Below the pieces are notes generated by a model, which saw only the letters and a program-made list of their open reading frames with translations, was not told where the DNA came from and made no database searches. This document shows positions 6,603-51,393 of a DNA stretch of 64,000 bases, piece after piece. The translations under genes were made by a program, and so were the position numbers. Numbering within the stretch: position 1 is the stretch's first letter; the number at the start of each line of letters is the position of its first letter. This DNA comes from Clostridiaceae bacterium HFYG-1003 (GTDB lineage Bacteria; Bacillota; Clostridia; Clostridiales; Clostridiaceae), in assembly GCA_024579835.1 (NCBI GenBank), contig CP102060.1, forward strand, positions 2,455,558-2,519,557. Direction: 5' to 3'.

Positions 6603-7224
6603 TGTAATCTCCTGTCGTGGTTTCTTATCGTAGTTTCTTATCGTGGTTTTTCCTGGTAAATGCTGAACCGATACCTCCCTGTCTTAAGGGGACGTCAATC
6701 GAAAGCTTGCGTCATATCAGTTACAAAACAATATGATTATACCCCAGGAAGGGGGTCAAGGGGTTACAAAACAGAATGTATTTCAGGAAAAAACAGCCGA
6801 CCGGATTCTATCCCACTGACCAGGCGGTTTCCGGTCAGCTCCGGTTTTCGCCCCACGAAGGATCTGTTCCCCATGGACAAACCCTTGGTCCCCGCAGTGT
6901 ATTGAGTATATTCCGTCATTGATCATTTTTATGATGGTATATCTGTGCTATGTTTTCTTTAAAACCGGATCGTCATCCAGACAATACCTGCACCGGGCGG
7001 TCTTCCTCCATCGCTCCCGGCGACCGCACGAGACAGCATGAGGAATCCGGATGGTCCGGAACAGGAAGGAGTGAGTCCAATGAAGCAGTAAACCAGACGC
7101 CGAGCATCTCATTGAGGTTGCACTGGGGACAGAATTTTGAGTACGGGATGGGCAGGCAGAAAACATCAGGTTGCTGCCTGCGTTGAATCTTTTCGGCCGA
7201 AACAGGCCGGATGGGAGAAGCGCT
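6603..7224 (+). other. Intergenic stretch with 13-bp repeats and no convincing gene
   Basis: I see no credible coding sequence here. Three copies of a 13-bp unit (TCGTGGTTTCTTA and variants) lie at 6615-6653, directly upstream of the first foldase start. A TATAAT-like -10 for the minus strand is at 6736-6741, but no good -35 is spaced for it. The small frames in this stretch overlap each other and lack ribosome binding sites. Confidence 0.5.
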
Positions 7225-47376: not shown

Positions 47377-47919
47377 TTATTGATCTCCGGACAAGGTGCC
47401 GGCGACCCGTTCGAATTCTTCCCGGCTGATGCCGTAATTGTTCAGTCTGGACAAAAGCGTTGAGGCACTGCCATAGCCGACGCCCAGCTTTTTGCCCAGC
47501 GCTTCGCGCCGCTTCTTTGAATCGGCCCGCCCCATCAGGCCATGGGCCATCAGATCCCGGGTCGTGAACTCCTCGCGCGCTTCGCAGGTCGAGGCATGGG
47601 CAGTAGCCAGCGCCCGCCGGATGCTCTCCGGATTGGCGTTTTCCACACCGATATCGCCTTTTCTGGTGCCTTCTTCGCGCATGATATAGGCATGCCGGAC
47701 TCCGGGACAAAGGGCTTCGATGCGCCGCCGGATCGTTTCTCCCGCATGATCGGGATCCGTCAGTACAATGACGCCCCGCTCCCTGCCGGCTTTCTGAATC
47801 CGCCGGATCGTTTCGCCCGTGATGCCAAACCCGTGGACCGCGATCACCTCTGCCTCAACGGCCTGTTTTACGGCAGTCACATCGTCCCGGCCTTCCACCA
47901 CAATGATTTCTTTGATCAT
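47377..47919 (-). CDS. rnmV: Ribonuclease M5
   Basis: A 180-residue enzyme that trims both sides of 5S rRNA precursors. A Toprim domain fills the N-terminal half: VVEGRDDVTAVKQAV and VLTDPDHAGETIRRRI carry the catalytic Glu and DxD-type acids. The C-terminal part (GLMGRADSKKRREALGKKLG) is the conserved DUF4093 segment of RNase M5. ATG at 47919 was preferred to a start 19 codons earlier; GGAAGCAGG lies just upstream. An insertion sequence sits 88 bases upstream of the start. Confidence 0.95.
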   Translation of the reverse strand: MIKEIIVVEGRDDVTAVKQAVEAEVIAVHGFGITGETIRRIQKAGRERGVIVLTDPDHAGETIRRRIEALCPGVRHAYIMREEGTRKGDIGVENANPESIRRALATAHASTCEAREEFTTRDLMAHGLMGRADSKKRREALGKKLGVGYGSASTLLSRLNNYGISREEFERVAGTLSGDQ

Positions 47920-47950
47920 ATCCTGCTTCCTTTCCCAAAGTCTCCTATTT

Positions 47951-47980
47951 ATTATAGCGGATTTTTCCCTGCCCACACAA
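47951..47980 (-). promoter_or_regulatory. Candidate promoter of rnmV-rsmA-lipoprotein operon
   Basis: On the minus strand TTGTGT (47975-47980), an 18-base spacer and a perfect TATAAT (47951-47956). It lies between the insertion sequence and rnmV, so these genes can still be transcribed despite the insertion. Confidence 0.6.
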
Positions 47981-47998
47981 AAAATCGCAGTCGTCTCT

Positions 47999-48007
47999 CC
48001 TCCGGTC
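47999..48007. repeat. Left 9-bp target-site duplication
   Basis: CCTCCGGTC immediately outside the left inverted repeat; the identical nonamer is found immediately outside the right end at 50189-50197. Confidence 0.92.
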
Positions 48008-48039
48008 TAGGATAAACGCATCAATTAGCCTTCATTTTA

Positions 48040-48073
48040 ACCGACAAATGACTTCCCCTTGTTATTTGTCGGT
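48040..48073 (+). terminator. Hairpin inside the left end of the insertion sequence
   Basis: ACCGACAAAT pairs with ATTTGTCGGT around a 14-base loop, followed by a T run. Placed before the first gene, it would stop transcription entering from outside, a known way elements avoid activation by neighbours. Confidence 0.7.
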
Positions 48074-48088
48074 TTTTAGCACATAATT

Positions 48089-48109
48089 GTATTACATACT
48101 ATGTAATAC
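48089..48109. promoter_or_regulatory. Operator-like palindrome before the insertion sequence genes
   Basis: GTATTACAT and ATGTAATAC, nine-bp perfect arms around ACT, lying eight bases before AAAGGTGGTG and the first start codon. Its place at the likely promoter suggests a binding site for a repressor, possibly the element's own first protein. Confidence 0.55.
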
Positions 48110-48125
48110 AAAAGGTGGTGAAGGC

Positions 48126-48752
48126 ATGGCTGATTATCCCGATTGGGTGCTTAAACATAAGAAACCAGGTACCTACATCAACGTCGTCAAAGGTAAGTAC
48201 TATCTGTATGCCGCCCATTCGGAGCGGATCAAAGGTACAGACAAAGTTCGGCGGGTCAGTGATGGTTATCTGGGTCGGATCACTGAGGAAGATGGCTTGA
48301 TCCCGCCCAAGGACAAAGTGAATGAGCCACCGGTTGTTTTGGAGTTTGGCATGTCCACAACGGTTCTTACCATCTGCGAGAACATCCACAAAGGCCTGCG
48401 CCGTACTTTCACCAAAGCTGGTGACCTGGTCATGGCAGCATCCATCCTCTCGTTTTTGTATGGAACTTACGACTCTCTTCTGTTCAAACAATCCTATCTA
48501 TCCAGGCGCTTCCCAGACCTTGATTTTGACGCGGTTCTGACAAAGCCCCAAGAGTTTGGGATCCAGCGGAGTCAATTGATGATCCGGGACACAATGGCTA
48601 GACACTTTGGTGAGGATCTTCCAACCGTGATGCTCCTTTTTCCTCTGGTCTACATGGTCAGCATCAATGACCGGGTTTACCGTTCCGCGGAACCCGAGGT
48701 CACCAGACAACTACGATTGAAATATAACTTGAAGTGGGAGGACCAGCTATGA
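48126..48752 (+). CDS. Accessory protein of the insertion sequence, unknown function
   Basis: A 208-residue protein encoded inside the mobile element. Residues 1-75 (HKKPGTYINVVKGKYYLYAA, then KVRRVSDGYLGRI) resemble the short beta-rich N-terminal segment found in some IS4/IS1634-type transposases. The rest is mostly helical with no catalytic DDE motif that I can see. ATG at 48126 follows AAAGGTGGTG. Its stop overlaps the transposase start (ATGA), so both are made together. It may help DNA-end binding or regulate transposition, but that is a guess from position. Confidence 0.8.
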   Translation: MADYPDWVLKHKKPGTYINVVKGKYYLYAAHSERIKGTDKVRRVSDGYLGRITEEDGLIPPKDKVNEPPVVLEFGMSTTVLTICENIHKGLRRTFTKAGDLVMAASILSFLYGTYDSLLFKQSYLSRRFPDLDFDAVLTKPQEFGIQRSQLMIRDTMARHFGEDLPTVMLLFPLVYMVSINDRVYRSAEPEVTRQLRLKYNLKWEDQL

Positions 48753-50047
48753 GCAAGATTTGCAGACCCATCCTGGAATACCGGGAAGTCATCAAAGCCA
48801 CCGGCATAACCATTGACGAGTACACCCCTCCCCAAAAGATCATGAAGCGTTTTATTCGCCTGTTCCGGGAGATCGAAGATGTCAGGATCCAGGCGATGAC
48901 CGACTACCCGCTCGAGGAGATCCTGGTGATCGCCTTTCTGGCGGTGCTTGGCAATGCCTCGAGTTGGAATGAGATCGAGCGGTTTGGCAATGCCAAGCAC
49001 AAGTGGCTGAAAAAATTCCTGAAGCTGAACAATGGGATTCCTTCTCATGACACGTTTCGCCGGGTCTTCTCACTGATTGCCTCGGAGCAGCTGGAAAAGG
49101 CTACTGTACTGTTTCTAATGGAGAATATGGCTGTCCTCAGGAAGTCTTTGGGCATCAAATCATCGGTACGTCAACTGTGCATTGATGGGAAAGAAGAACG
49201 CGGTACGGGACGCAAAGCCGGTACTGATCAGGAGATCCGTAATCTGCAGACTCTGCATATCTACGATGCCTCCAATGGCGTCTGCATAGTCTCTCATCAG
49301 ATCGACAGCAAAACCAATGAGATCCCCGCTGCCCAGGAAGCACTCAAAATGCTCCAACTCAAAAATGCCATCGTCACCTTTGATGCTCTGCACACGCAGA
49401 CCAAAACCATCGGAATCATCATGGAGCGAGGCGGAAACTATGTTGGTGCCCTGAAGGGTAATCAGGGAAAATTGGCACTGGCTGCCGCTGAATCCTTCAC
49501 GGAGAAGAATAAAGTCAGAATTCGAAAAGCTGGAAAGAATTATTACGAGACCACTGAAAAATCTCACAGTCAGATTGAAACCAGGCAGTTCTATATGACC
49601 AAGGCCATTGATCTGGATAAGGAGTGGCAGGGGCTTCGTAATTTCATCTGTTACGAGAAAAGGATATTCAGCACAATAACCGGCAAAGAGAGCACTGAAA
49701 TCCGATACTATATCACCAGTCTCAATGATGTTGAACTCGGCGGAGACGCGATCCGGGGGCATTGGAGTGTGGAAAACCAGCTGCACTGGCATCTGGACTA
49801 TACCTTCCACGAAGACGACAACACGACAGTGGATCGACAGGCGTTCACCAATTTGAGCATCCTCAATAAGATGGCCTTGTCCCTGTTCAAACTGGTCCAG
49901 CCACTGATGAAAAAGAACAGCAGTATCCGGCTGATCCGGAAGGATTTCTCCTGGGGATTCGAAGATAATCTGGCTAAGCTGCTCAATTCCTTTGACGAGA
50001 ATGTCTTGAAAAACGCTTTAGAAAATGCAAATTTGAATAGAAAATAG
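48749..50047 (+). CDS. ISAs1 family transposase
   Basis: A 432-residue DDE transposase. The N-terminal family segment (YPLEEILVIAFLAVLGNASSWNEI..., IPSHDTFRRVFSL) is followed by the catalytic core: first Asp in CIDGKEERG, second in IVTFDALHTQT, and the Glu in HWSVENQLHWHLDYTFHEDD, the exact style of ISAs1 members. No frameshift or stop is visible and all three acidic residues are present. ATG at 48749 has GGGAGGACC upstream and overlaps the stop of the accessory gene. Confidence 0.95.
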   Translation: MSKICRPILEYREVIKATGITIDEYTPPQKIMKRFIRLFREIEDVRIQAMTDYPLEEILVIAFLAVLGNASSWNEIERFGNAKHKWLKKFLKLNNGIPSHDTFRRVFSLIASEQLEKATVLFLMENMAVLRKSLGIKSSVRQLCIDGKEERGTGRKAGTDQEIRNLQTLHIYDASNGVCIVSHQIDSKTNEIPAAQEALKMLQLKNAIVTFDALHTQTKTIGIIMERGGNYVGALKGNQGKLALAAAESFTEKNKVRIRKAGKNYYETTEKSHSQIETRQFYMTKAIDLDKEWQGLRNFICYEKRIFSTITGKESTEIRYYITSLNDVELGGDAIRGHWSVENQLHWHLDYTFHEDDNTTVDRQAFTNLSILNKMALSLFKLVQPLMKKNSSIRLIRKDFSWGFEDNLAKLLNSFDENVLKNALENANLNRK

Positions 50048-50109
50048 GGATCTTGGAGAAAGCGACAAAAACCTTGGGGAAAGTGCGCTCCAAAATCACC
50101 TTTCAAGCT

Positions 50110-50149
50110 GAAACTGTCCCCTGGCCTGTAATGGCCAGGGGACAGTTTC
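50110..50149. terminator. Hairpin inside the right end of the insertion sequence
   Basis: A 17-bp perfect stem (GAAACTGTCCCCTGGCC and complement) with a 6-base loop, 62 bases after the transposase stop. It should end the transposase transcript and shield it from opposing transcription. Confidence 0.8.
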
Positions 50150-50188
50150 CTTTAAGGTTATGTTGTTTGAATTGATGCGTTTGTCCTA

Positions 50189-50197
50189 CCTCCGGTC
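50189..50197. repeat. Right 9-bp target-site duplication
   Basis: CCTCCGGTC directly outside the right inverted repeat, identical to 47999-48007. Confidence 0.92.
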
Positions 50198-50256
50198 AGA
50201 CAATTTCAATTCTGACAGGCAGCCTCTCCCTCCTGACCGGGTCAGACGAAAAATAA

Positions 50257-50284
50257 CCGGGCAGCGGCGGTGAGCCGTGCCCGG
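50257..50284 (-). terminator. Terminator of yabE
   Basis: CCGGGCA pairs with TGCCCGG, with a tail TTATTTTTCG on the minus strand, 15 bases after the yabE stop. Confidence 0.65.
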
Positions 50285-50298
50285 ATAGCTGATCTTTC

Positions 50299-51393
50299 CT
50301 ATTTGACGTAGCCTTTGATTTTCTTCAAGCCCATGTTGTTTACTCTGGCCAGGTAGGTGCTGTTTGATTCTCCGCTTCTTCTGGGGATGAACACATCCAG
50401 GCGGGTGGAGCTGTAGAAGTTGCTGCCGCCGCGATCCTTGACGGTAAAGGTGCCCCAGCCGGAGAGATAGATTTTCTTTCCCAGCGAGTAGTAGTTGGAA
50501 GCTACCATGCCGTAGCGCAGGCTTTCACCGGTCGCTGTAATGGTATATCCGCCATTCTCGGAAGGCAGATTGGTGTAGAAGGACAGCGTGAAGGTCTTCC
50601 AGTTCTTGTCGGAATCAGAATCGGTATCGGTAGTGCTGACCTTTTTCGCCACCGGTTTTTTAACTTCCGGCGCTTTCCTGACTTTGACGACCGGCTTCTT
50701 TTCCACTGCGACGGTTTTTTTGACCACCACCGGTTCCTTGGTTCCCACCAGGATGGTCTCGGCAACGGGCAGGCTTTCCACATAATCTGAGAGAATTTCT
50801 TCGCCTGTCAGCTGGCCATCCACATATACCATGCGGCGGGTAGAAATCCGTTGTCCCATCTGGCCGGAACGCTCAACCTTTTCTTCGCCTTTGGGAAGAT
50901 CCGCGGTCTGTACTCTGGTCTGGCCGTAGGCCACCGGAATGACTTTGGTCTGTTCCATGATTCGAACTCGCGACAGGATGAGTTTCATGCCCTCGGTGAC
51001 CGGGGCAGTGAGTTCAGAACTGAGGCGGTCATGCTCGCCTCGGCTGAGGTTCATTTCCTTCAGCAGGGCTGCCACGTTGTCTGCCTGTGTGACTCTCTCA
51101 TACAGAAGACCGTCGGCCATGACGCTGACGTTTCTCGCTTTTTCTATCATAATATGGTCGGTCTGGTGCAGCTGATCCGTCAGGGCGACATTCAGTTCGT
51201 CCTGCGGTCCTACTTTTACGCCGATTTCTTCCAGCAGTTCTCCGACCCGATCCTTTGAAGTGAAATAAGTACGGGATGTTCCATTGACATCGACCTGAAC
51301 CCGATTCACCTGATTGTAGGGAACCTGAGTTGAGGTGATCATCAAGCCGGCGGACAGCGCCAGGCTGGTGGTGATCTTTAGGATATGTATCAA
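50299..51393 (-). CDS. yabE: YabE-like G5 and 3D domain cell-wall protein
   Basis: A 364-residue secreted protein. A signal-anchor helix (about 4-22) is followed by two DUF348 ubiquitin-like repeats (about 33-125), a G5 domain (about 140-212: VEKVERSGQMGQRISTRRMV), a Lys/Val/Pro-rich linker, and a C-terminal 3D domain (about 275-350), with the Asp-rich KDRGG and RLDVFIPRR regions. The family includes Rpf-like or lytic-transglycosylase-like wall enzymes. The start is TTG at 51393 after GGAGG. It sits between tatD and rnmV as in B. subtilis. Peptidoglycan remodelling is the expected role. Confidence 0.93.
   Translation of the reverse strand: MIHILKITTSLALSAGLMITSTQVPYNQVNRVQVDVNGTSRTYFTSKDRVGELLEEIGVKVGPQDELNVALTDQLHQTDHIMIEKARNVSVMADGLLYERVTQADNVAALLKEMNLSRGEHDRLSSELTAPVTEGMKLILSRVRIMEQTKVIPVAYGQTRVQTADLPKGEEKVERSGQMGQRISTRRMVYVDGQLTGEEILSDYVESLPVAETILVGTKEPVVVKKTVAVEKKPVVKVRKAPEVKKPVAKKVSTTDTDSDSDKNWKTFTLSFYTNLPSENGGYTITATGESLRYGMVASNYYSLGKKIYLSGWGTFTVKDRGGSNFYSSTRLDVFIPRRSGESNSTYLARVNNMGLKKIKGYVK

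Follow-up and report, generated by a model that had tools for sequence, protein, structure and literature searches.

The insertion element described here carries, ahead of its transposase gene, a second gene whose product is probably a DNA-binding domain captured from an IS1634-family transposase, which acts, likely as a dimer, to repress its own operon and not as a helper that binds the element ends. The element is 2,181 bp long and occupies positions 48008–50188 of the window (the whole 64,000-nucleotide stretch of Clostridiaceae bacterium HFYG-1003 DNA that was analysed), with both genes enclosed in 19-bp inverted repeats that differ by a single mismatch. Its features are as follows:

47999–48007, no strand: target-site duplication CCTCCGGTC, left copy, abutting the left end
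48008–48026, plus strand: left terminal inverted repeat TAGGATAAACGCATCAATT, with near-identical ends in L016
48039–48074, plus strand: terminator-like stem-loop and trailing TTTTT close to the left end (folding energy −19.5 kcal/mol, z −7.8)
48059–48087, plus strand: best promoter-like match, TTGTTA-17-CATAAT, touching the palindrome (9/12, a consensus match only)
48087–48111, plus strand: palindrome TTGTATTACATAcTATGTAATACAA, the putative operator to which the accessory protein would bind, with a 21–22-nt block conserved in L016 and L017
48126–48752, plus strand: accessory gene, 208 aa, by homology an IS1634-type N-terminal domain without the catalytic domain
48749–50047, plus strand: ISAs1 family transposase, 432 aa, overlapping the accessory gene by ATGA
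50110–50149, plus strand: stem-loop with a perfect 17-bp stem close to the right end, by its fold a possible terminator or insulator
50170–50188, minus strand: right terminal inverted repeat AATTGATGCGTTTGTCCTA, an 18/19 match to the left repeat
50189–50197, no strand: target-site duplication CCTCCGGTC, right copy, 9 bp, abutting the right end

Judged by its sequence, the transposase clearly belongs to ISAs1, matching NF033564 (ISAs1) with an E value of 3e-84 and 282.9 bits (cut-off 70), matching also PF13808 and PF01609, and retaining intact the DDE motifs IDGK, FDAL and HWSVEN, which are conserved across A3. The 19-bp inverted repeats and the 9-bp duplications likewise agree with membership of ISAs1, a family in which duplications measure 8–10 bp. 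A single gene is usual, though not strictly defining, for ISAs1, and since the window element has two overlapping genes it represents a variant of the family. Single-gene ISAs1 elements (e.g. ISPa60, ISOan1, ISCysp7 and ISAsp2) have in common with it the transposase family, the DDE motifs, inverted repeats of ~20 bp beginning near YAGG and 9-bp duplications, but they are only about 1.2–1.6 kb long compared with its 2,181 bp, and they lack the extra upstream co-oriented gene and the palindrome at its promoter. As the sequence-only reading had supposed that known ISAs1 elements generally carry the transposase alone, it fits that no such second gene was present in the other ISAs1 elements examined (nine plasmids and genome G418). 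Four single-gene ISAs1 copies of equal score were found in G418, and the two that were compared have 1,624 bp in common between different 9-bp duplications.

The host genome (3.43 Mb, one contig) contains two further full-length copies, one at 1893182–1895362 with 0 nucleotide differences from the window element, flanked by the 9-bp duplication GATCAGTTC, and one at 739867–742047 with 2 differences, flanked by TCCCATCGA. All three genomic copies thus have 9-bp duplications, and because these near-identical copies are bounded by different ones, the boundaries of the element, the duplication length and its recent mobility are established. The sequence-only reading, which had called the ends and the duplication exact and had proposed a search for other copies in this genome, was borne out on both counts: the repeats match at 18/19 positions with CCTCCGGTC on both sides, and the two additional copies have duplications of their own. 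The window copy lies in an intergenic gap within 47377–51393, where no flanking gene is broken; the neighbours, named from our own reading of the ORFs, resemble the genes for ribonuclease M5 and for a 3D-domain protein of the YabE type. The copy at 739867–742047 has a further, large transposase-like ORF (L003:3795-5168) beside it. Sequences resembling the inverted repeats at 340231, 824802 and 1320886 of the genome were considered as relicts of the element and rejected, with no ISAs1 remnants nearby.

The accessory gene, which according to the same reading overlaps the transposase start, does so by ATGA, the coordinates of the two coding sequences (48126–48752 and 48749–50047) being in agreement. 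Searches with the 208-residue protein gave nothing of weight in Pfam, NCBIfam, PHROGs, PADLOC or PDB, and it matches neither NF033559 nor PF01609, so that the catalytic domain of IS1634 transposases is missing. Its profiles nevertheless match the N-termini of the full-length transposases L015, L021, L030 and L031, of which L021, L030 and L031 were tested and are IS1634 members by NF033559 (3e-30 to 1e-46). By BLASTP the accessory protein is 30% identical to L030 over 167 residues (E 6e-20), both starting with PDWVLKHK, and the homologous region corresponds to the first ~165 residues of the IS1634 transposases. In the domain tree the four accessory proteins group as a single clade (94/90), with L030 as the closest neighbour. 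From this homology and the tree, the accessory gene is recognised as an IS1634-type N-terminal domain without the catalytic part, and since it sits among many IS1634 domains in the unrooted tree we infer that IS1634 was the donor of the domain and not its recipient. An AlphaFold model of low confidence has strands at residues 16–59 and helices at 78–169; fold searches with this mediocre model returned no structure match. The C-terminal part of the protein is poorly conserved.

A complete two-gene element was also found in L016, a Synergistaceae MAG, with CAGGACAAACGCATCAATT ends and 47% identity, no target duplication being visible at its ends. In L017, a Clostridiales Family XIII MAG, the accessory gene is accompanied by the left end and by the start of an ISAs1 transposase, broken at the contig end, while L026 (G351) contains a more distant pair, with 27% identity in both proteins, whose right end was looked for and not found. 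Accessory fragments are represented by L022 (G354), cut at a contig end, and L028 (G159), also cut, which may belong to an IS1634 transposase rather than to the accessory group. Across a phylum sample of 398 genomes, the accessory profile matched in five, one of which (G176) is an IS1634 transposase, and the ISAs1 transposase in nine. Because the pair recurs elsewhere, in one Synergistaceae genome and in other Bacillota genomes, the separate subgroup that had been suggested from the window alone is a real one. The opposite outcome, an accessory protein found widely away from transposases, was searched for as well; contig-end fragments aside, it occurred only beside ISAs1 transposases or within IS1634 transposases and never free in another context. 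The same inverted repeats around a transposase alone were met in no case, although few close sisters exist and the sole relict in the genome lacks its left half. As to the origin of the two-gene arrangement, the accessory tree gives one clade; the transposase tree does not recover a single origin, yet the AU test does not reject it (p 0.21). Among plasmids no relative of the accessory protein merited pursuit, phages gave nothing beyond weak matches to baseplate proteins, and viral contigs gave no match. L018 proved a false positive as an accessory relative, and the marginal matches L033 and L034 were set aside.

As would be expected of an autoregulator, a palindrome is present in the element's own promoter region and is kept in relatives. 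The palindrome TTGTATTACATAcTATGTAATACAA lies 14 nt upstream of the accessory start, and a block TGTATTACATAnTAYGYAATAC is common to the window, L016 and L017, where the stretch from the terminal repeat to this block is poorly conserved; the L016 palindrome is imperfect. L026 and L022 have the palindrome ATGTATAGTATAATATATTATACAT at the same place, and the L028 leader has no significant one. Palindromes were counted in 4/6 accessory leaders versus 3/11 leaders of single-gene ISAs1 elements, a difference that is not significant (p 0.14), the latter three being of a different type (hairpins that are GC-rich or have a long loop, and A/T runs). The stem-loop at 48039–48074 was not listed by a simple terminator scan.

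The same kind of palindrome precedes IS1634 genes. It was found in 11 of 16 IS1634 leaders with the domain and in 0 of 13 without a detectable domain (Fisher p 1.3e-4), the main sets having been drawn by protein similarity, the samples being small, as in the other leader comparisons, with statistics that ignore kinship, the start codons chosen by rule, possibly wrongly for some controls, and the test designed after the window's palindrome had been seen, with its scoring revised once. With 0/6 in the control leaders of IS256 in addition to the 0/13, chance occurrence in AT-rich leaders was rejected as an explanation for the IS1634 set. These palindromes mostly end 9–19 nt before the start codon and often contain TATAAT. 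The half-site core GTATTAC is common to L030, the nearest IS1634 relative, and the accessory operators. L108, from the window's own genome, and two more IS1634 members with a similar N-terminus all have a palindrome (3/3), which serves only as illustration, since the group was formed after the leaders were seen. L031 and L015, IS1634 members with the domain, have no palindrome and show direct repeats like TTAGGTAT before the start codon. The host genome has 27 IS1634 matches, many of them intact and in several copies.

In IS1634 elements the palindrome half-site recurs within the terminal repeats, slightly inward from a shared CCTGxATTCCCG-type tip by a few bases, as in L108 (operator CACGTTATAATTATAACGTG, end AATTATAACG) and L069 (operator half AATTATACC, end AATTATACCTA); further recurring half-sites are CTCATAACGA (L086) and TTAACCTAC (L103). 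For each element, the match of the ends to its own operator is better than to foreign ones (mean score 17.6 vs 11.5), and 0 of 20,000 permutations were as good. Since every element thus repeats its particular half-site at its ends, the domain is the likely reader of that site, and one sequence-reading domain probably serves both promoter and ends in IS1634, a pattern that is possibly a general rule for the family. A half-site specific to the element, with one copy per end and an inverted pair at the promoter, was seen in L030, L069, L070, L083, L084, L086, L103, L108 and other IS1634 elements. The two-gene ISAs1 elements show no visible half-sites at their ends: in the window and L016, foreign operators fit the ends at least as well as the accessory operator does, and in L017 and L026 the half-site is absent at the left end. 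The separated domain therefore differs from that of the IS1634 (NF033559) transposases, with which it has the N-terminal homology and the promoter palindrome in common, in having no catalytic domain and no half-site at the element's ends; it appears to have kept a visible promoter site and no visible end site. IS1634 elements, moreover, mostly consist of one ORF and make duplications of 5–6 bp (PMC2266710), compared with 9 bp for the window element.

According to the mechanism proposed here, an ISAs1 ancestor would have taken up the 5' portion of a transposase gene of the IS1634 family, comprising the site-specific N-terminal DNA-binding domain together with its palindromic operator and lacking the catalytic domain, and the first gene would now make this domain as a separate protein. 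The accessory protein would bind the palindrome at 48087–48111, probably as a dimer, and repress the accessory–transposase operon, making the supply of transposase self-limiting, with translation of both genes presumably coupled through ATGA. The ISAs1 transposase would recognise its own terminal repeats and insert with 9-bp duplications, and the stem-loop at 48039–48074 would stop transcription entering from outside, leaving the element's own regulated promoter in charge. About as likely as not is the broader view that an ISAs1 lineage adopted the element-specific domain of another family as its operon repressor. In this view the N-domain of each IS1634 element reads one half-site, and the specificities for promoter and ends would evolve jointly as long as the domain stays in the transposase; once separated, it retains the promoter site only.

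The accessory protein might instead join the transpososome and supply contacts to the ends, the target or a partner, a role that the N-domains of IS1634 apparently play in cis. It is a conserved co-translated partner ahead of the transposase, and the homologous IS1634 domain very likely binds ends; we nevertheless consider such a helper unlikely, as single-gene ISAs1 elements move without any such protein (the four copies in G418) and as the ends of the two-gene ISAs1 elements show no operator half-site. The original suggestion of a helper or regulator can hence be narrowed, the palindrome and the IS1634 domain speaking for regulation at the promoter and the missing half-sites against help at the ends. 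It is also possible that the palindrome acts at the level of translation, as a hairpin in the RNA.

In other elements, truncated transposases and their free DNA-binding parts act as inhibitors, and the free N-domain could similarly block resident IS1634 elements, of which the host genome offers 27 matches, or poison transposase complexes. This is highly improbable, given that the IS1634 operator examined in the host genome, that of L108, is unlike the accessory palindrome and that the element has a conserved palindrome of its own. A functionless passenger, i.e. an IS1634 transposase fragment left by nested insertion and deletion, would account for the presence of only the N-terminal part of a transposase and for the poor conservation at its C-terminus; it is hard to reconcile with an intact frame of similar length and ~47% identity across different phyla, first in the operon and preceded by a palindrome, and is very unlikely. 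The autorepressor thus remains the preferred reading; if true, it would show how a simple insertion sequence can gain self-control by adopting a specificity module of another transposase family.

Second genes beside the transposase inside the same ends are known from IS21 (istB) and IS66 (tnpA/tnpB). Unlike these, the accessory protein of the window element appears to derive from the transposase of another family and matches no family model tried. No description of a two-gene ISAs1 element or of the IS1634 half-site rule was found in the open-access papers searched. The half-site rule, a by-product of this analysis, is a sequence-readable and testable prediction of what the little-studied IS1634 transposases bind and may be the more general result.

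The relict in the host genome (L011:4187-7092, G000:C1:1618686-1621591) stems from a related ISAs1 element whose left part is gone, and it is split by an IS21-like pair of transposase and IstB-like genes. Near 7020–7070 of L011 there is a long stem-loop placed much like that at 50110–50149 of the window. Both right-end stem-loops are perfect or near-perfect, and because their stem sequences differ at a similar place, it is suggested that structure rather than sequence is kept at the right end.
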